Shown: in pieces, positions 1 through 19,409 of the stretch
Position numbering within the stretch: the first letter of the stretch is position 1
Layout: each line of letters starts with the position of its first letter
Virus record (IMG/VR): IMGVR_UViG_3300046536_000506
Span: 1-20,035 of that record
DNA: 20,035 nt
Reading direction: 5' to 3' (one strand)
Source: a virus
Notes under the pieces: generated by a model
What the model saw: only the letters and a program-made list of their open reading frames with translations
Told to the model about the DNA's origin: nothing
Database searches by the model: none
Made by a program: the position numbers and the translations under genes

Positions 1-542
1 AGGGTCGTCAGGATGCGCCGCGGCACCGGGGATGCCGGCACGCCCCGCTCGGTGGCGTAGGTCTGGCGAGCCTTGAGACCATTGAGAATGTCGACCAGCG
101 CCTTCGGCGGGCTCTCGAGGAGCTCGACGAACTGGCGGGTCCGCGGGGAGAGGCGGGCAAGCTGCTTGTGCCGGCGATCGTTGAGCTCCAGGAGCTCGTC
201 GGCGCGATCGGCGCCCTGGTCGGCGAAGATGTCGTGCAGGCTGCCGCTGTCGTCTTCGCCACGCGAGGCATCGAACTCCAGGTGGGACCCGTTGTGTTCC
301 CGAAGCTCCTTCTCGACCCAGCGGTTGATGTGGTTGCGCATGCCTGTGCGCAGATAGGCCAGGAACGGCACGCCGGCTGCCTCATCCCAGGACCGGCTGG
401 CTTGCACCCAGGCGATCGAGCATTCCGAAATGACGTCCTCGATGCTGATCACCGATCCGGCCGCGGTCACCCGGCGCATCACGCGCGAGGCGAACGAGCG
501 AATAGCGGGCATCGAGTCCTCGATACGGAGAACCATGTTCAT
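1..542 (-). CDS. Sigma-70-like RNA polymerase sigma factor, 3' end cut by window edge
   Basis: The reading frame starts at an ATG at 542 (second in-frame ATG at 536), preceded by GGAG a few bases upstream, and runs off the left edge after 180 codons. Residues about 32-75 resemble sigma region 2: a helix containing EDVISECSIAWVQA, then FLAYLRTGMRNHINRWVEKE, which has the F-x-x-Y-L-R pattern of the core-binding and -10-binding helices of small sigma factors. A C-terminal part with LSPRTRQFVELL could be the start of a region 4-like segment. Phage and ECF-like sigma factors redirect host RNA polymerase to phage promoters; that role is inferred. The gene lies 15 bp after the CobS-like gene stop and is probably co-transcribed with it. 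A different helical regulator cannot be excluded because the C-terminus is missing. Confidence 0.62.
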   Translation of the reverse strand, partial: MNMVLRIEDSMPAIRSFASRVMRRVTAAGSVISIEDVISECSIAWVQASRSWDEAAGVPFLAYLRTGMRNHINRWVEKELREHNGSHLEFDASRGEDDSGSLHDIFADQGADRADELLELNDRRHKQLARLSPRTRQFVELLESPPKALVDILNGLKARQTYATERGVPASPVPRRILTT

Positions 543-557
543 CACTCCGCTCCGCCC

Positions 558-1742
558 TTAGCCGAACAGCCGCTGGGCATACTGGTCGACGACCTCGCGA
601 TCCGTCGACGACAGGCGGTTCGCGAACGCCAGAGCCAGGCCCTCGCGCCAGTTGCCGCCGGTGACGACACCGAACAGCGCGGCGTTGATCAGTTCGCGCG
701 GGCTCACCACGTTGCTGATCTGGCCTCCGGTGAAGGCTTTGCGGATCTCGGTCGCATACTGGATGATCTTGTTGGCTTCCTGCATGCGGATGCCCGACTT
801 GCCGGCGACGACCGCGGCTTCGATGTTCGCGGGCATGTAGCCGACCTTCTTGGTGACGGCGAAGCGCGAGTAGTTCGCGGCATTCTGGATCTGGGTGCCC
901 TGATAGAGGCCCGTCTCGTCGCCGCCGCCGTTGGTGTTGCCGGTCGCAACGAAGCGGAAGTTCGGGTGCGGCTCGACGACGCGCCACTCGGGCGGGGCGT
1001 CCTTGATGACGAGCGCCTTGCCTTCCATCACCGGCTGGTAGGCAGCGAGCACGCTCGGCATGCCGAAATCGTATTCGTCGGCGCAGTAGACCCAGCCGTA
1101 TTTCATGGCGAGGGCGAGGGGACCGGGGTTGAACTTCGTGACGGCGTGGACGTGCTCCTTGCCGTCGGAGCCGATGATGATCTCCTGCACCACGATGTAT
1201 TGGCCCAGGATGTGCGCCTCTTCGGTGTTGACCGTGTGCTGCACGCGATGGAAGGGGCGGCCTGTGCGGGCACAAACCTGTTCCCAAGCGGTCGTCTTGC
1301 CGGTGCCGTGCGGACCCCAGAACAGCGCGGGCTTGTTGAGCTCGAGCGCCATCAGGGCGATCTTGGTGAGGTCGACGTCGAAGATGTAGTCCGCGTCGAT
1401 CTTGGGCAGCCAGGCAAGGGTGTCGGCGTCATAGTCGGAGCGCTCGAACACGCGCGCGTCCATGACCTTGCCCTGGGTGTTGGTGACGTTCTTCGGGTCG
1501 AAGCCGAAGATCTCGGTGAGCGGCTGGCGCGGGCCGGCGCTGGCCTTCTCGGCCGCCTTCTGCGCGCGCTTGAGCCGGATGGCGTCTTTGGCTGTCTCGG
1601 AAAGGAGCGGCGCGTTCGGGAACTGCGCCTGGTAGTCGGCGAGGGTGACGGTCGGGTGGTTCTTCGAGAGATGGAGCTCGATCGAGTGAACCATCGCGCT
1701 GTCAAGCTCGCACTTGATCTTCGCCTTGCTGTTATCGCTCAT
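558..1742 (-). CDS. CobS-like (MoxR/cobaltochelatase family) AAA+ ATPase
   Basis: A 394-residue AAA+ ATPase. The Walker A motif GPHGTGKT is at residues 143-150, Walker B VYCADEYDF at about 218-226 (D222, E223), sensor 1 ATGN at 266-269, and a possible arginine finger in YSRF near 293. The segment after sensor 1 (GGGDETGLYQGTQIQNAA) is typical of CobS, the ATPase subunit of aerobic cobaltochelatase. Phages often carry a CobS-like/CobT-like pair with no cobalamin genes around, and none are visible here, so a chaperone-like remodelling role with the VWA protein at 2179-4791 is more likely than cobalt insertion. The N-terminal 100 residues are an extra region compared with cellular CobS of about 330 residues. 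The start codon follows a GC-rich leader with only a weak GGGG. Two palindromic operators (1783 and 1805) lie in its promoter. Confidence 0.88.
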   Translation of the reverse strand: MSDNSKAKIKCELDSAMVHSIELHLSKNHPTVTLADYQAQFPNAPLLSETAKDAIRLKRAQKAAEKASAGPRQPLTEIFGFDPKNVTNTQGKVMDARVFERSDYDADTLAWLPKIDADYIFDVDLTKIALMALELNKPALFWGPHGTGKTTAWEQVCARTGRPFHRVQHTVNTEEAHILGQYIVVQEIIIGSDGKEHVHAVTKFNPGPLALAMKYGWVYCADEYDFGMPSVLAAYQPVMEGKALVIKDAPPEWRVVEPHPNFRFVATGNTNGGGDETGLYQGTQIQNAANYSRFAVTKKVGYMPANIEAAVVAGKSGIRMQEANKIIQYATEIRKAFTGGQISNVVSPRELINAALFGVVTGGNWREGLALAFANRLSSTDREVVDQYAQRLFG

Positions 1743-2074: not shown

Positions 2075-2182
2075 CTAACCTCCGATGCTGGCGCGGATGG
2101 GCACTGCGGGAATATGGTCGAGCACCACGTAGATCACGACCAGACAGACGAGAACGATTAGGGCGGCCTTCACGTTGATCAC
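2075..2182 (-). CDS. 35-residue single-span membrane peptide
   Basis: A GTG start at 2182 overlaps the TGA stop of the CobT-like gene as GTGA, and the frame ends in TAG at 2075-2077, directly before the next gene. The product begins MINVKAALIV and has a hydrophobic stretch of about 18 residues (AALIVLVCLVVIYVVL), long enough to cross a membrane once, followed by a short polar tail DHIPAVPIRA. The tight coupling on both sides and the clean hydrophobic helix argue that it is a real gene. No function is recognised. Small membrane peptides are common in phages, for example as accessory lysis or membrane proteins, but nothing here selects between these. Confidence 0.62.
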   Translation of the reverse strand: MINVKAALIVLVCLVVIYVVLDHIPAVPIRASIGG

Positions 2183-4791
2183 GGCAGCAGGATCCTCTTC
2201 AGTTCGGCCATCACGGCCTTCGGCAGTTCGTTGAGTTCGTTCAGGACGACGCACTTCGGATAGAAGGTGCGAACCGCGTCGCTTAGAATGCCGACGCCGA
2301 CCGTCTCGATCTTCGCCTTCTCGCACTCCTCGACCGCCTTATGGAGATCCGAGTAGATTTCGTCCGAGAAGTTGGACATGCCGGCGGGGTGACCATCGGA
2401 CAGCACGATCAGCACCTTGCGGGGCTCAGGGCGCAGCATCAGGCGCTGACCGGCGTAGCGCACGGACTCGCCGTCGGTGTTGCCTTGCATCGAGCAGGTG
2501 AACGGGGCGGCCGCGAAGCGACGCTTCACCTCCGGCGTGACCCGCTCGTCGAATGCCTTGTAGATCGGCAGATAGAGGGCGCCCATGCGGGAGAACTCGC
2601 GTCCGATGCGCTCCTCTTCCGCTCGCTGCTCCTCGATCCACTCGTAGCCCTTGAAGCCCCGCGGGGGCATCGTGGTGAACCCGGTGACCTCGTGCTTGAT
2701 GTTGACCCGCTGCAAGGTCTGCGACAGCGCGTAGCCTGCGGCCATCGCGACGGTCATCTTGCCGCGTTCGTCCATCGAGCCTGAATTGTCGATCAGGAGC
2801 GAGACGGCCGTCTCCTGCGACTTGTGCTCGTGGACGCGGCGGAACACGCGGTCGTCGCCGGTAGCGAGCCGATGCAGCGAGCCGGAGTGCAGGCGACCCG
2901 AACGATAGCCGGGGACCTTGAGCACCTGGCTGCGCGCGGCCATCATGCGCTCGATGTCCTTTTGCATCGGCGCGACCATGTGACCGGTGCGCTCGTCGAG
3001 CTCCACGACCAGATCGCTGACCTTCTTGGTCACGCGCTCGTAGCGGCGACCGATTTGCATTTCCTTGGTGACGGTCTCGTTGCCGTCCGGCGCCGGGAAC
3101 TTCTCGTGGACGTCCCAGTCGCGGGTGTAGACGCGATAGTCCAGGCCCTTGATGTTCCGCGTTGCCTCGTTGGTCACGATCATGGCGATCGCTGTCGCCA
3201 GGTCCGGGCCCAAATTCTCGATGTCCGCGCCCTGGAACGGGCTGCTCTCCGGCGCCTGCTCGAGTTCGGCGTTGGTGACTTCGGCCTCGTCCTCTGCGTC
3301 GGCTTTCTCGCCGGCCGCGCGGGACCCACCGTCGTCCTGGCCCTCTTCGTCGTCAGCCTCGGAGCCTACTTCGCCGTCGGCTTCCTCGCTGCTTTCGCCC
3401 TGTTCTTCAGGCGAACCCTCATCTTCGCCGTGTGCGCCTTCAGAACCGTCAGCGTCATCGGCCTCGTCGGTGTCATTGTCACCACTTGGATCCTTGGAGC
3501 CGGAACCACCCTTGGCGCCGTCTTTCTCCTCCTCGGCATCTCCTTCGTCGTCGCCGGCAGCATCATCGCCATCAGCATCGTCGCCTTCATCTTGATCGTC
3601 CTTCGAGGAGCCAGATGGCCCGCCAGCCTGATCGTCGCCGTCGCCATCCTCCGTGTCATCATCTTCTCCGTCGTCGGCGTCGCCTTCGCCCGCTTCATCA
3701 CCGTCGGCCAGTTCGTCCTCGTCCTGATCGTCGTCGCGTCCGCCAGCGCCCGCCTGGTCGCCTTCGGCATCGGCGTCTTCAGCATCGCCTTCTCCAGCGT
3801 CCTGATCATCGCCGGCTTCACCCTCGGCTTCCTTGCCTTCTTCGCCATCTTTCTCACCCTCTCCGATATCGCCGTCGTCGCCGGCCTCGTTCTCCTGGTC
3901 AGCCGGCTGCTCCTCGTCCGACTGTTCGCCGTCCGAGCCCTTGTCGTCTTCGTCCTCGGGCTTGTCCTGGTTGTTGCCTTCGCCGTCGGCATCGTCCGAC
4001 TTCTCGCTGTCGGACTGCTCGTCGTCCTTCTTCTCCTGCTCCTTCATCTCCTCATTGATGGCGTCGGCCATCGAGGGCTGCGGCGGGGGCGGGGGAGGCG
4101 GCTCGGGGTGGATGATGTCGAACAGGATCTTGGCGAGCTCGAGGGCTTCCCACGAATCCTTGATCCGGGCGAAGCGCGCCTTGTCGCTGTCCGGAACAGC
4201 CTTGACCAGCGCCGCGACCAGCGGGTCCTTGTCGTAGCCATTATCGACGATCAGGTCGGTGAATTTCTGCTGGCCCGCCCAAGAGCGCACCAGCGGCACG
4301 ACGATGCAGCCGAAGCGATCCTGCGGCGTCTTTGCGTTCTCGATGCCGGGCTTGCAGATGCGGTTGATGAAGACGTCGTGGAGCTTGTCGATGTTGTAGG
4401 CCGAGCCCTTGAAGCGCTTGGCCATTGCGGCCTCGACGAAGGGGTCCTCGACGATGTTGTGGAGCTGGTCGAGACGCTGTGCGCCGGCCTTGGGCGTCAT
4501 GCCGCGGCTCGGGCCAAGCTTCGCGCCAATCACGAGGGACTCGGCGACTGCGTCCCAGTCGGTGTCGAGGACGTGACCGAGTTCGTGGTCGATGAAGCCC
4601 TGGACCGCGAAGATCAGGGCTTCATCTGCGTTGTCAGGCAGATGGGGAATGTTGACCTGGATCGGCTTCCGGGTCTTCGGATCGGTTCGAACAAAGGCCT
4701 GCGCGCCGACTTGCGTCACTGCGATGCCGCGCGATGCGATCATCGGAATGAGCTTCTTAACAACCTCGCGAAGTCGCTGGACTTTGTTCAT
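2179..4791 (-). CDS. CobT-like VWA protein with HELGH motif and long acidic linker
   Basis: An 870-residue protein in three parts. The N-terminal domain (1-230) has a zincin-like HELGH at residues 69-73 in FIDHELGHVLDTDW. A proline run (230-238) leads into an extremely Asp/Glu/Gly-rich low-complexity linker (about 250-515). The C-terminal domain (about 517-870) carries a von Willebrand A fold with MIDAS motif DNSGS at 668-672 and a second Asp in VLSDGHP near 799. This matches the CobT subunit of cobaltochelatase, which works with CobS, but it is larger than cellular CobT (roughly 630 residues) because of the linker. With the CobS-like ATPase it probably forms a MoxR/VWA-type remodelling complex. 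No purine-rich ribosome binding site is evident before the ATG at 4791; the leader shares a sequence with the CobS-like leader. It has its own operator-bearing promoter. Confidence 0.87.
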   Translation of the reverse strand: MNKVQRLREVVKKLIPMIASRGIAVTQVGAQAFVRTDPKTRKPIQVNIPHLPDNADEALIFAVQGFIDHELGHVLDTDWDAVAESLVIGAKLGPSRGMTPKAGAQRLDQLHNIVEDPFVEAAMAKRFKGSAYNIDKLHDVFINRICKPGIENAKTPQDRFGCIVVPLVRSWAGQQKFTDLIVDNGYDKDPLVAALVKAVPDSDKARFARIKDSWEALELAKILFDIIHPEPPPPPPPQPSMADAINEEMKEQEKKDDEQSDSEKSDDADGEGNNQDKPEDEDDKGSDGEQSDEEQPADQENEAGDDGDIGEGEKDGEEGKEAEGEAGDDQDAGEGDAEDADAEGDQAGAGGRDDDQDEDELADGDEAGEGDADDGEDDDTEDGDGDDQAGGPSGSSKDDQDEGDDADGDDAAGDDEGDAEEEKDGAKGGSGSKDPSGDNDTDEADDADGSEGAHGEDEGSPEEQGESSEEADGEVGSEADDEEGQDDGGSRAAGEKADAEDEAEVTNAELEQAPESSPFQGADIENLGPDLATAIAMIVTNEATRNIKGLDYRVYTRDWDVHEKFPAPDGNETVTKEMQIGRRYERVTKKVSDLVVELDERTGHMVAPMQKDIERMMAARSQVLKVPGYRSGRLHSGSLHRLATGDDRVFRRVHEHKSQETAVSLLIDNSGSMDERGKMTVAMAAGYALSQTLQRVNIKHEVTGFTTMPPRGFKGYEWIEEQRAEEERIGREFSRMGALYLPIYKAFDERVTPEVKRRFAAAPFTCSMQGNTDGESVRYAGQRLMLRPEPRKVLIVLSDGHPAGMSNFSDEIYSDLHKAVEECEKAKIETVGVGILSDAVRTFYPKCVVLNELNELPKAVMAELKRILLP

Positions 4792-6478: not shown

Positions 6479-7642
6479 ATGCGATCGTCATCATCAGGGT
6501 GGCGGCGGACGTCCGCCGCTGCTCTGCAAGGGGTCAAGGCCGTCGAGCCGGAAAGGACCGTCACCAGGCGCGAGCTCTCCATGGTGGCGCGGAACGCAAT
6601 GAAGGGGCTGCGGCTCCCCTCCTCGCTCCGGAACCTGCTGGGCGAGCTCGTGGGTGTCTACGGCGAGACGATGGTGAAGGGGAAGATCCTGATCTACCCC
6701 TCGAACGACTACCTGGTCACCCGCACTGGTCTATCCGAGCGGGCCGTGCGCTATGGGATCCGCCGTCTGGTGGATCTGTGCCTGGTCGGCGTCAAGGACT
6801 CGGCCAACGGCAAGCGCTTCGCCATCAAGAACAAGGCCGGCGACATCCAGGACGCCTACGGCTTCGACCTGACCAAGCTTTACGATCGGCGTGCGGAGTT
6901 TGTGGAGCTAATCTACGAACAAGATGCGGAGATTGAGCGGCGCGCGCGGATGTTTGACGAGATCACCATCTGTCGGCGGGCCTCACAGGAGACGATCACG
7001 GCGCTGTCCGAAGAAGGTGGTCGTTTTTCGGACAGGCTCGAGCGCCTGATCGGCCGCACGCCGCGGAGGTCCCGCACGCTGGCTGTCGAGCTGATCGAGC
7101 CGGTGCTGGTCGAGTGGCGCGCTCTACGCTGCGAGCTTGAGGAAACCTTCTATATAGCCGCCTCTGGCGGCAAGAACCGCCGTCTCATTGAATCAAGACC
7201 ACCCAATCTTGAATCCCATATGATGGAACAAGAGGCTCTGCGAGGAGCTGAGGCTGGGGAAGATCTTTCTACGCCAATCGGCACCCTCCCCGTGGCGCTG
7301 GTCGTCGAAGCATGTCCTTCTCTTTTGGAGTATGTCGAGCTTCCCCGAAGCGAGGTCGATCTGGTCGCGGCCGGCCGCTTCCTGCGCTCTACGCTGGGCG
7401 CTCATGCGACCGTTTGGAAAGAAGCGTCAGATGCGCTGGGGCCGGTCGCGGCCGCTGCAGCGGTCTGCCTGGTGCTCCAGCTGTATGAGAACGACGCCAA
7501 GCGCGGCCAGGCGCAGCGCATCCGCAACCCGGGCGGCTATTTGAGGTCCGTGGTCCGGATGATAAAGGACGGCCGGATGAACCTGCGCGCCGAACTGCTG
7601 GCTCTAATTCGAAAACAAAATGGCCCGACTGAAATCCCCTGA
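6479..7642 (+). CDS. repC: RepC-family plasmid replication initiator
   Basis: A 387-residue initiator. Residues about 45-150 form the RepC winged-helix region: YGETMVKGKILIYPSNDYLV, then TGLSERAVRYGIRRLVDLCLV, then DSANGKRFAIKNKAGDIQDA and YGFDL, all hallmarks of RepC. A coiled middle part (150-240) precedes the C-terminal domain with the conserved IRNPGGYLRSVVRMIKDG near 350-370. In repABC plasmids RepC binds the origin, which lies inside repC, and starts replication. The ATG at 6479 has GGGG six bases upstream within a structured leader. RepA and RepB are not visible; the gene before it encodes an RHH protein. Its last codons overlap the next gene by 23 bp. This is the main sign that the element can live as a plasmid. 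Confidence 0.92.
   Translation: MRSSSSGWRRTSAAALQGVKAVEPERTVTRRELSMVARNAMKGLRLPSSLRNLLGELVGVYGETMVKGKILIYPSNDYLVTRTGLSERAVRYGIRRLVDLCLVGVKDSANGKRFAIKNKAGDIQDAYGFDLTKLYDRRAEFVELIYEQDAEIERRARMFDEITICRRASQETITALSEEGGRFSDRLERLIGRTPRRSRTLAVELIEPVLVEWRALRCELEETFYIAASGGKNRRLIESRPPNLESHMMEQEALRGAEAGEDLSTPIGTLPVALVVEACPSLLEYVELPRSEVDLVAAGRFLRSTLGAHATVWKEASDALGPVAAAAAVCLVLQLYENDAKRGQAQRIRNPGGYLRSVVRMIKDGRMNLRAELLALIRKQNGPTEIP
7140..7230. other. Candidate origin segment inside repC
   Basis: Within repC this stretch is lower in GC than the rest and carries a perfect GCCGCC-TCT-GGCGGC hairpin (7157-7171) and two copies of TTGAATC (7188-7194 and 7209-7215) spaced 21 bp, two helical turns. Known RepC origins lie in an AT-richer part of the repC coding sequence. 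The placement is therefore plausible but untested. Confidence 0.4.
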
Positions 7643-8360
7643 CGCCCGCCGGCGAGAGAGCACTGGCCGAATTCGCGGTATCGAGACGATTAAGCGGCAC
7701 GCCGCTCAACGCAATGTGCTGCGGGACGAGACTTTCGACCAGGCGATCGCGCCGGCCGTCATCCAGGCCTTCAACGAGGGGGTTCGATTCTTTTGGCAAC
7801 TGGCGGATTGGCTGAATGAGCGGCGCCTGCTCACCTGGCGCGGCGAGTCCTGGACGCGACAGCGCGTCGACAGCGCCTTTAGGCGCGAGCATCGGCGGAT
7901 ATTGAACGAGGTCGGGATCAAAAACGGGCCGAGACCGTGTCCTATATGCTTCATGACGACCCGCACCGACTGCCCTATTCCGGGCTCCTGGTGTCACGGG
8001 CGATCGAGGGTCGGCAGACGGTGCAATTCGAAGCAGATGCCGAAGGCGCAAAGACAAAAACTGCTCGCGGCCCCGCGGCAAGTCTTGATCGCTATGAGCG
8101 AGGAGTGGCGACGTGATCCTAAATACGCCGTTGAGGTTTCGAACCGCGGCCGGGTTCGCAAGCGAGAGCTGCTGGAAGCAAAACTGTCGCCCCACGGTGA
8201 TCTCTGCGTCGATATTGGCGGGGTAAGCCTGCCTGTCGCATATCTCGTGGCGACAAATTTCCACGGCACCCCGCAAGCGAGGAACGAGACCATCCGTTTT
8301 CTGGATGGCGATCGACGAAACGTCGATGCTGCAAATCTGGGCTGGTCTATTCGCCGGTGA
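7620..8360 (+). CDS. Recombinase-like/NUMOD-HNH-like fusion protein
   Basis: A 246-residue protein that overlaps the end of repC and has no clear ribosome binding site, so it may depend on repC translation. Residues about 40-85 (AIAPAVIQAFN, LADWLNERRLLTWRGESW, RQRVDSAFRR) resemble the 'LN..G..T..G..W....V...L.R' DNA-binding segment of large serine recombinases, without a catalytic domain. Residues about 105-135 hold Cys/His (CPIC, WCHG, RRC). From residue 159, an internal ATG at 8094, MSEEWRRDPKYAVEVSNRGRVR matches the NUMOD4 motif, and the tail FLDGDRRNVDAANLGW matches the end of an HNH homing-type nuclease, but the catalytic histidines appear replaced. It could instead be two joined genes. 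Function unknown. Confidence 0.6.
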   Translation: MARLKSPDARRRESTGRIRGIETIKRHAAQRNVLRDETFDQAIAPAVIQAFNEGVRFFWQLADWLNERRLLTWRGESWTRQRVDSAFRREHRRILNEVGIKNGPRPCPICFMTTRTDCPIPGSWCHGRSRVGRRCNSKQMPKAQRQKLLAAPRQVLIAMSEEWRRDPKYAVEVSNRGRVRKRELLEAKLSPHGDLCVDIGGVSLPVAYLVATNFHGTPQARNETIRFLDGDRRNVDAANLGWSIRR

Positions 8361-8549: not shown

Positions 8550-8762
8550 TCAGCCGACCGTGAAACGGACGACGTGTGAAGCCTCGTCGACCCAGACGTT
8601 GAGTCGGTTCGGGTTGACGTCGATATTGCCGGAGATGCCGTTGGCGGGATCGAGCACGTTGACCGAGAGGTGGTGCGCGTGAGCAACGACCGCGATCGTG
8701 TCGGCGCAATCGATGAGTTGCTTGCCGACGAACGGTTTGTAGAGGCGGAGATCCTGGGCCAT
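8550..8762 (-). CDS. I78-family peptidase inhibitor-like protein
   Basis: A 70-residue protein starting at the ATG at 8762, chosen because AGAGGA lies just upstream; a longer frame to 8801 lacks this. The N-terminal YKPFVGKQLIDCADTIAVVA and the C-terminal NPNRLNVWVDEASHVVRFTVG match the I78 inhibitor pattern (FVG..., then RLNV.VD....V.RV..G), a relative of potato inhibitor I. The middle part has an insertion (LDPANGISGNID) compared with short I78 proteins, and the usual final Cys is Val. There is no signal peptide, so it would act in the cytoplasm, possibly on host or phage serine proteases (inferred). It lies just upstream of the two tRNA-like units and may be co-transcribed with them. Confidence 0.72.
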   Translation of the reverse strand: MAQDLRLYKPFVGKQLIDCADTIAVVAHAHHLSVNVLDPANGISGNIDVNPNRLNVWVDEASHVVRFTVG

Positions 8763-8851
8763 AGCTTCCTCTTCTGAATTGGATAAACGAGGCCGGGGCA
8801 ATAACCGTCCCGAGCGTTGCAGCCCTCCGCCCTCGCGGTCGGAGCCCGTAG

Positions 8852-17245: not shown

Positions 17246-18301
17246 TTACGGCGACGGCAGTCCACCCACAGAGCAGACCGCGAATGCATTGGCCGCGAAG
17301 CAGGCGACGCAGGCGATGCCGTTCGTGATATCGAGACCCATCGCGCCATCCATCCATGTGCTGGTCGGACCCTTCACCCCGCCCAGAAAACGGATGTTTT
17401 GCAGGTTGCTGACATCCAGAACGATCAGAGCTTTGCCGGATTCGGACGTGATGTAGGCGTAGTTCTGATAGACCACGATGCCGCGACCGCCGGCGAAATA
17501 CGTCATCGCGCCGAAGCCGCCATAGCCACTAAAGACCGAAAGAACGCTGGGAGCCGTGGGCGTGGTTACGTCGATCACAATCAGGGCGCCATTGAAGCCC
17601 TGCGTCGAGGACCCGGCTCCAAGCACGAATAGCTTCTTGCCGTCCGGACCCAGCGTGATGCCGCGAGCGCTACCCAATGCCGAGTGAGTGATGTTGGTCA
17701 CCCAGACCAGATTTGTCCGATCGCGAATGTCGATCACGGCGACGCAGTTCGCGGTGTCACAAGTGACGAACGCGTAATTGCCGTCGGCCGAAAAAATCAC
17801 ATCGCGAGCGCCGTTCATCGAGCTGCCCGGCGTGGGACCTCGCTGTTCCGCGATGTAGGCCGGCGCGGCGGGATTGGTGATATCGACCGAGCACACCGAG
17901 GCGCGCGTCAGCGTGGACACGTAGGCGGTCACGCCGTCAGGATGAAGACGCAGGTTCGTCGCGCCGCCAAAGTGGACAGCATCAACAAGACTGGTGACGA
18001 CAGACGGCGCGGCCGGGTTGGAGACATCGAGAACGCCGAACCTGGCCGACGTCTCGCCGATGACGAAGGCGCGATTGCCGGCGACCCGAATTGCCTCGAC
18101 GTTCGCAAGATTGGTTGCGTCCTTGAGGTTTCCCACCACAACAGGCTTGCTCGGAACCGAGACGTCAACAATGTTGACGTTCGCACCTGTTCCCGCCGTG
18201 TAGACGAGATTGCCTACGCGGCACAAATTGACGCAGGTGCCAAAGCGAGCGTCAGAAATTCGCGCGAGCACGCTGGGCTGCTTAGCAGAGCCAAAGCCCA
18301 T
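17246..18301 (-). CDS. LVIVD-repeat beta-propeller protein
   Basis: A 351-residue protein. It starts at the ATG at 18301, which has GGAG seven bases upstream overlapping the preceding stop region; a longer frame upstream is shadow. Six or so repeats of about 45 residues each end in a V/L-D-V-S/T-x-P-x-x-P motif: VDVSVPSKP (45-53), LDVSNPAAP (91-99), VDITNPAAP (139-147), IDIRDRTN, IDVTTPTAP (243-251) and LDVSNLQN. This is the LVIVD repeat, forming a beta-propeller; in cells such proteins are often surface-exposed. There is no signal peptide. Between phage structural genes it is best read as a virion surface or tail-tip protein used in adsorption (inference). Confidence 0.82.
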   Translation of the reverse strand: MGFGSAKQPSVLARISDARFGTCVNLCRVGNLVYTAGTGANVNIVDVSVPSKPVVVGNLKDATNLANVEAIRVAGNRAFVIGETSARFGVLDVSNPAAPSVVTSLVDAVHFGGATNLRLHPDGVTAYVSTLTRASVCSVDITNPAAPAYIAEQRGPTPGSSMNGARDVIFSADGNYAFVTCDTANCVAVIDIRDRTNLVWVTNITHSALGSARGITLGPDGKKLFVLGAGSSTQGFNGALIVIDVTTPTAPSVLSVFSGYGGFGAMTYFAGGRGIVVYQNYAYITSESGKALIVLDVSNLQNIRFLGGVKGPTSTWMDGAMGLDITNGIACVACFAANAFAVCSVGGLPSP

Positions 18302-18305
18302 TGTT

Positions 18306-19409
18306 TTACTCCTCAGTCCATTCGATCGCGATATCGATCTTGCCGCCGGCGGGCACCGCAGCGCCAGCCAAGTTGATCGCCAGGAAGTCAGACGTGCCGC
18401 GCAGCACGAACGGCTCGTCATTGCGAATGCCGAAAGAAATTTCGACGGGCGACGCCGGCAGACCGGCGGGCGGGTTGAGGCCGACCCGGCGCTGGATCAT
18501 GGTCGCGATAGCGGTGCCGACGGCCGTCAGGTTCGCCGTAAACACCTTGAGGACCGCGGTCGCAACCGCATCGGTATTGTCGGATCGTGCGGGAGTGATC
18601 GTGGTCGCGGTGCCGCCCGAGCCGGCCGTGCTGCGCCGGATCATCGAGGCGGTCATCTGCGCAGCCGCAGTGGCTTCGCCGGAGATCAGGACCCGCTTGA
18701 CCTTGATCACCTTGGTCGACGAACCCTGCAACAGAACGAGATCCGTCGGGGTCGCGGCCGGAACGAGAGCGACAGCCTCATACCGATAGGTCGCCTTCAG
18801 ACCTTCCGTCGAGACGTGGCCGATATAGGTGTTCTGGACCGGCGAGTTGAGGTTGCCGATCGAGTTCGTGCCCAGAGGCAGAGACCCCTGCAACAGGTTG
18901 AGAATGAGCTGATCGTTGGACGCAGCACTTGCCAGCGCGGCCACAGTCGCCGTGGGCGAAGCGCCGACAGCCGAAACACGAACGCGAACCTTGCCGAACG
19001 CGCCGCACGGCACCACCCAGGCGCCGACGCCGTTGGCCGGGACGCTGCTCACACCGGCGCCGCCGCTGAACGGGTAAGCGCTGACGCCGACCCAATTGGT
19101 GCCGTCGGGCGTCAATGCCTCGAACAGCAGCGTGACGTTGGTATTGGCGGTCACGTTGAAGGCGGCACTCGCCTTGCCCGTCGTGACGATTTCCAGGGTC
19201 TGGGCGACGGTCGTCAGTGCCGCAGGTGCGACCGTGGTGTCGGTCGCATTTGCAGATCCACCGCCGGCAGAGCCACCGTCAATGATGACGTGGAGGCCCG
19301 GAGTTACTCCGGCGCTGACCGGATTGGGGCCACTCGTCGGCTCGCCGGCATCGGATTTGCCGATTACGGTTGCAGGCGGACTCGAAATACCATCGTCGAC
19401 AAAGGACAT
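18306..19409 (-). CDS. Phage structural protein, possibly tail or fibre
   Basis: A 367-residue Ala/Thr/Val/Gly-rich, beta-type protein without Cys motifs (one Cys) or membrane spans. The middle part (about 80-160) has a jelly-roll-like pattern (FNVTANTNVTLLFEALTPDG then GAWVVPCGAFGKVRVRVSAV). The end PAGGKIDIAIEWTEE resembles C-termini of phage surface proteins. I do not recognise a named family. Its start at 19409 lies 31 bp from operator copy 10 and its strong promoter; the stop is 5 bp from the propeller start, so the two are co-expressed and perhaps assembled together. Confidence 0.7.
   Translation of the reverse strand: MSFVDDGISSPPATVIGKSDAGEPTSGPNPVSAGVTPGLHVIIDGGSAGGGSANATDTTVAPAALTTVAQTLEIVTTGKASAAFNVTANTNVTLLFEALTPDGTNWVGVSAYPFSGGAGVSSVPANGVGAWVVPCGAFGKVRVRVSAVGASPTATVAALASAASNDQLILNLLQGSLPLGTNSIGNLNSPVQNTYIGHVSTEGLKATYRYEAVALVPAATPTDLVLLQGSSTKVIKVKRVLISGEATAAAQMTASMIRRSTAGSGGTATTITPARSDNTDAVATAVLKVFTANLTAVGTAIATMIQRRVGLNPPAGLPASPVEISFGIRNDEPFVLRGTSDFLAINLAGAAVPAGGKIDIAIEWTEE

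Follow-up and report, generated by a model that had tools for sequence, protein, structure and literature searches.

Does a viral protein that resembles the cobaltochelatase subunit CobT, and carries an HExxH motif in its N-terminal domain, serve vitamin synthesis or protein processing? Viral cobS and cobT genes are often tallied as auxiliary vitamin-B12 genes, and the question is raised by such a pair in the window analysed here, a stretch of 20,035 nucleotides that makes up positions 1 to 20,035 of IMG/VR virus record IMGVR_UViG_3300046536_000506. Based on the evidence presented below, the protein is more likely to be part of a protein-cutting or remodelling machine of phage replication than a vitamin enzyme.

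The cobT-cobS gene pair and its products

A sequence-only reading of the window had described a CobT-like protein with a HELGH motif, a 265-residue acidic linker, a complete MIDAS and a partner ATPase of the MoxR type, and all of these features were recovered in our analysis. The cobT-like gene is a real minus-strand ORF that runs from an ATG at position 4791 down to 2179, while the plus-strand frame across this interval is broken by stops. Long plus-strand ORFs that lie over cobT were judged to be antisense artefacts of the acidic stretch. The relevant features are as follows:

3–545, minus strand: sigma-70-like factor, truncated by the window end, next after cobS (Sigma70_r2, E = 7e-8)
558–1742, minus strand: CobS-like AAA+ ATPase of the MoxR/CbbQ type, the partner (AAA_5, E = 1e-14; CbbQ_C)
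2179–4791, minus strand: CobT-like protein, 870 aa, phrog_1576 (E = 1e-177)
2185–2847, minus strand: VWA domain (CobT_C), residues 649–869 (PF11775, E = 5.7e-37)
2776–2790, minus strand: MIDAS motif DNSGS, residues 668–672, with T706 and D799 elsewhere (conservation)
3256–4065, minus strand: acidic low-complexity linker, residues 243–512, 46% D/E (composition)
4066–4101, minus strand: proline-rich hinge, residues 231–242 (composition)
4102–4791, minus strand: predicted N-terminal zincin-like domain, residues 1–230 (fold model and PF06213 matches, see below)
4432–4458, minus strand: second motif, N112-x2-E115-D116-x3-E120, with a candidate third metal ligand, D116 being favoured (conservation)
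4573–4587, minus strand: HELGH, residues 69–73 (conservation, see below)
6479–7642, plus strand: RepC replication initiator (PF03428, E = 3e-36)

The VWA domain scores 127.9 bits against PF11775 (cut-off 21), and its MIDAS residues D668, S670, S672, T706 and D799 show little or no variation across 23 relatives. Linker residues 248–512 (265 aa) consist of 46% D/E and 6% K/R and have a net charge of about -106; for the stretch 243–512 the net charge is about -108. Acidic linkers are also present in relatives, with a median length of 280 aa.

The HExxH site and the predicted fold of the N-terminal domain

HELGH is the sole HExxH in the 870-residue protein, a motif that occurs in 3% of shuffled copies, and it is retained in 89 of 98 nonredundant full-length ORFs. 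In an alignment of 18 members, H69, E70 and H73 belong to the 34 invariant columns together with N112, E115, D116 and E120 of the second motif, and, of the 228 positions, E70, E115, E120 and D116 rank within the top nine by conservation. To avoid selection on the motif itself, 80 loci were picked by their VWA domain alone: 71 of them possess HExxH, five are cut by contig ends, two carry the N domain on an ORF of its own, and two have HEVAR. A chance origin is ruled out by conservation of this extent and, judged by these comparisons, HELGH is neither fortuitous nor a local relic.

HExxH is paired with a second motif of the pattern N-x2-ED-x3-E, in which the position of D116 is occupied by Asp in all 89 HExxH carriers (88 with ED, one with VD). 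The position of E115 is variable, being V in ICP2, which retains HExxH. At the D116 position, the nickie group has S and canonical CobT has Q, and both are devoid of HExxH. This pattern favours D116 rather than E115 as candidate third metal ligand. Covariation of the two motifs is partial, as ED is kept without HExxH in ANB28 and Caballeronia.

The nine ORFs without HExxH comprise three fragments or misaligned rows (two of them derived from split genes), one cellular protein (Caballeronia), one HEVAR variant and four true losses, which belong to the Pseudomonas nickie group and Stenotrophomonas phage ANB28. Both of these lineages keep the VWA domain and CobS, which implies that the complex can work without the site and that peptidase activity is not essential in every relative. 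The peptidase-type N domain proposed by the sequence-only reading thus stands as a zincin-like domain with a conserved HExxH and a second acidic motif, and does not extend to the two lineages that lost HExxH; in these, the sequences indicate that a non-proteolytic role also exists.

This observation leads to what we rank as the main rival explanation, namely a pseudo-peptidase N domain with a metal-binding or purely structural role, within a CobT-CobS pair that acts as a remodelling chaperone without proteolysis. There is precedent for such a function, since other MoxR-vWA pairs remodel their targets without a peptidase (PMC7159879), and absence of the site with retention of the rest is seen not only in the two phage lineages but also in cellular CobT. 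However, E70, a glutamate of the catalytic type, is among the most conserved positions, and HExxH-type sites are common to viruses of bacteria and archaea. Moreover, joint retention of H, E, H and D is not what one would expect from a purely structural role. A remodeller that does not cut therefore appears possible, if rather improbable.

An AlphaFold model of the N domain, computed on the 18-member alignment, reached a pLDDT of 90 and a pTM of 0.83. It consists of a helix, three short strands, the helix carrying HExxH (residues 57–76), the helix carrying the ED motif (residues 100–126) and further helices. The top rows of a VIA-align comparison were ZMPSTE24 (Z 5.5; 148 residues, 4.7 Å), Ste24p (5.3) and ArdC (4.4); IrrE (3.9), MATCAP, selecase and a putative Zn peptidase followed further down amid unrelated helical proteins. 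VIA-align Z values below 8 may reflect a common arrangement, and all zincin values obtained here are 5.5 or less. Ste24p/ZMPSTE24, ArdC and IrrE thus have the resemblance to the phage fold model and the HExxH motif in common with the phage domain, but Z is low and no sequence relation to them was detected. A Foldseek search of the model against the PDB returned nothing significant, and no meaningful match emerged when PDB sequences were searched with the N-domain profile. None of the 18 members' N domains matched the DUF2201 metallopeptidase-VWA family (PF13203/PF09967) at E ≤ 1, and PADLOC found no match. Taken together, the modelled N domain resembles zincin proteases best, albeit weakly.

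Distant viral proteins display comparable motif pairs. They include the cyanophage "peptidase" (HEVGH with LED or TED in Syn19, P-HM2 and S-CREM1), proteins of Vibrio, Gordonia and Roseobacter phages, and gp57 of the archaeal virus HVTV-1. The pairs are HECYH and VVD in ICP2, HEIGH and GED in Gordonia phage Katyusha, and HEAGH and LED in CRP-810. HVTV-1 gp57 (L283:5608-7839, minus strand) contains HECGH, AED, an acidic linker and a VWA domain, and an AAA+ gene is located two genes away; Foldseek matched viral CobT/VWA proteins including that of HVTV-1. A SprT-like gene is also found near gp57. In cyanophages, the core "peptidase" with HEVGH, LED/TED and VWA adjoins cobS (L277:2097-4256, L278:1853-4078, L279:1983-4124). 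The N-domain profile matched only one of 289 genomes of the class, the match (L287, G185:C30:51435-51683) being a 574-aa bacterial protein with HEAAH, LED and VWA encoded on a 368-kb contig.

Relation to cellular CobT and the cobaltochelatase

Cellular CobT (PF06213/PF11775, TIGR01651), of which 77 canonical genes were examined, has the order N domain, acidic linker and VWA in common with the phage protein. When deeper alignments were used, hhalign related the phage and cellular N domains with E = 2.5e-5 over 186 columns; the small alignments A1 and A3, compared as profiles, yielded another, weak register (E = 0.022). PF06213 was matched by all 18 phage N domains at E ≤ 1 (best 6e-10). The window N domain scores 22.1 bits, below the gathering cut-off of 26.1, while two relatives, L078 and L080, exceed it with 48.5 and 45.7 bits. 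With a cellular CobT profile, viral CobT N domains rank at the top of 4145 ORFs, although individual E-values are modest; in the reverse profile search, the acidic linker inflates the result. Based on these sequence comparisons, shared ancestry of the phage and cellular N domains is well supported, and the VWA domains are likewise homologous.

The two forms differ at the putative active site: phage GFIDHELGH is aligned with cellular GLGDSMALR, and phage VVEDPYVE with cellular AVEQARVE, such that SMALR takes the place of HELGH and EQ that of ED. Judged by the wide spread of HExxH, the cellular N domain may be the derived, degenerate form, an idea that we did not encounter in a limited search of the literature. 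The VWA-domain tree, in which the root and cellular CobT are unplaced and branches are long, implies more than one change of the HExxH state (the starred branches force at least two).

Could the viral pair nevertheless act in cobalamin synthesis? It has been proposed that viral CobST replaces or joins the host subunits, uses host CobN and raises cobalamin synthesis (PMC8651126). Sequence likeness to the CobT and CobS families is compatible with this model, as is the presence of CobN in 12 of 14 bacterial genomes with canonical CobT, which means that an alphaproteobacterial host could supply this partner of cellular CobT. By contrast, the viral proteins fall far short of the respective equivalogs (CobT, TIGR01651, 93.7 bits versus a cut-off of 759; CobS, TIGR01650, 143.7 versus 558.6 for the partner ATPase), and true CobT is devoid of the HExxH site. 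CobN was not found in 16 related phage records by the same search that was positive in those 12 of 14 bacteria. Likewise, and as the sequence-only reading had stated, the scanned ORFs of the 20-kb window contain no cobalamin genes besides cobT and cobS. The hosts of relatives also argue against this model, as they include E. coli, Salmonella and Klebsiella. De novo synthesis of the corrin ring does not take place in E. coli, and CobNST is not used by Salmonella. A cobaltochelatase role is thus unlikely, and the host-complementing model in particular has a very slim chance of being correct. The same study regarded the cyanophage "peptidase" label as a mistake (PMC8651126); the sequence evidence collected here favours the opposite, i.e., a peptidase-type site in viruses.

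Gene neighbourhood and proposed mechanism

Of 103 nonredundant relatives, 100 have CobS at the locus, mostly directly downstream of cobT, and a sigma-70-like gene comes directly after cobS in 65 of the 85 loci with room for it. DnaE is encoded close by in phage-plasmids, and sliding clamp and clamp loader genes are located nearby in cyanophages. In two phages with a split cobT (L078:3965-6448 and L080:1792-4550) the protease half forms a protein of its own, which keeps HExxH and ends with a sigma-70 region 4 domain and thereby also hints at a connection with transcription. The RepC gene marks the element as a phage-plasmid and, together with genes for a ligase, a primase, DnaB helicase and PhoH, suggests that the window covers part of a phage-plasmid from alphaproteobacteria. 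Among the relatives are Rhizobium phage RHEph10, Acinetobacter plasmids, SSU5-type elements and a Methylobacterium oryzae plasmid that has the same RepC and sigma neighbours. Elsewhere in the window, an HNH endonuclease-like gene (7620–8360, plus strand) overlaps the end of repC, a small ORF (8550–8801, minus strand) matches peptidase inhibitor I78 weakly, with a score below the cut-off (E = 0.005), and 17246–18421 (minus strand) encodes a protein with LVIVD repeats.

The combination of a metallopeptidase-vWA protein with a MoxR-type ATPase is already known from jumbo phages (PMC7824862). There, a pair with an N-terminal metallopeptidase was proposed to act in virion assembly, and an archaeal virus in which a MoxR-vWA pair contributes to tail development was cited as precedent (PMC7824862). 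By analogy, the protein studied here might be a virion-maturation protease that processes structural proteins together with its chaperone, for which the architecture described there and the tail-development precedent speak (PMC7824862). The genes of phage-plasmids and cyanophages are, however, located with replication and transcription genes and not with structural genes, and we consider a maturation function improbable. The group 2.2 jumbo-phage pair (example ASV44728; likened here by description) shares the N-terminal metallopeptidase fused to vWA and the MoxR-type partner (PMC7824862), but differs from the present one in that the latter occurs in phage-plasmids next to replication and sigma factor genes. 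A search for phrog_459 in Erwinia phage Yoloswag gave no hit, and no control gave a signal either. Similarly, cyanophage "peptidase" T4-GC146 has HEVGH, the LED/TED motif, a VWA domain with SGSM and an adjoining cobS in common with the window protein, but belongs to T4-like phages; a tblastn search with the full-length window protein did not recover it at E ≤ 1e-5.

The explanation that we prefer, with somewhat better than even prospects, is that of a metalloprotease-VWA cochaperone which is driven by a MoxR/CobS-type ATPase and acts in phage replication or transcription. In this model, the N domain would be a zincin-type metallopeptidase joined through the long acidic linker to the VWA cochaperone domain, which would dock via its MIDAS on the CobS-like AAA+ ring. 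The ring would use the energy of ATP for pulling or remodelling a client protein, and the zincin domain, with H69, E70, H73 and either D116 or E115 as putative site residues, would bind metal and cut the client. With the operon embedded in a neighbourhood of replication and sigma-factor genes, the client should most likely be sought among the phage or host proteins of replication or transcription, an assignment for which this neighbourhood is our sole guide.

It is tempting to speculate beyond this locus. Ancestrally, the CobT-family N domain may have been an active zincin protease; viruses of bacteria and archaea would have kept it as a protease that is powered by ATP and directed at replication or transcription proteins, whereas CobT of the cobaltochelatase would be a derived pseudo-protease. 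We put this forward tentatively, as a scenario with slightly less than even prospects. In either case, a protease-type site is conserved in viruses and absent from the cellular enzyme. If the scenario is true, many viral "cobT" genes that are counted as vitamin-B12 genes would be misannotated.
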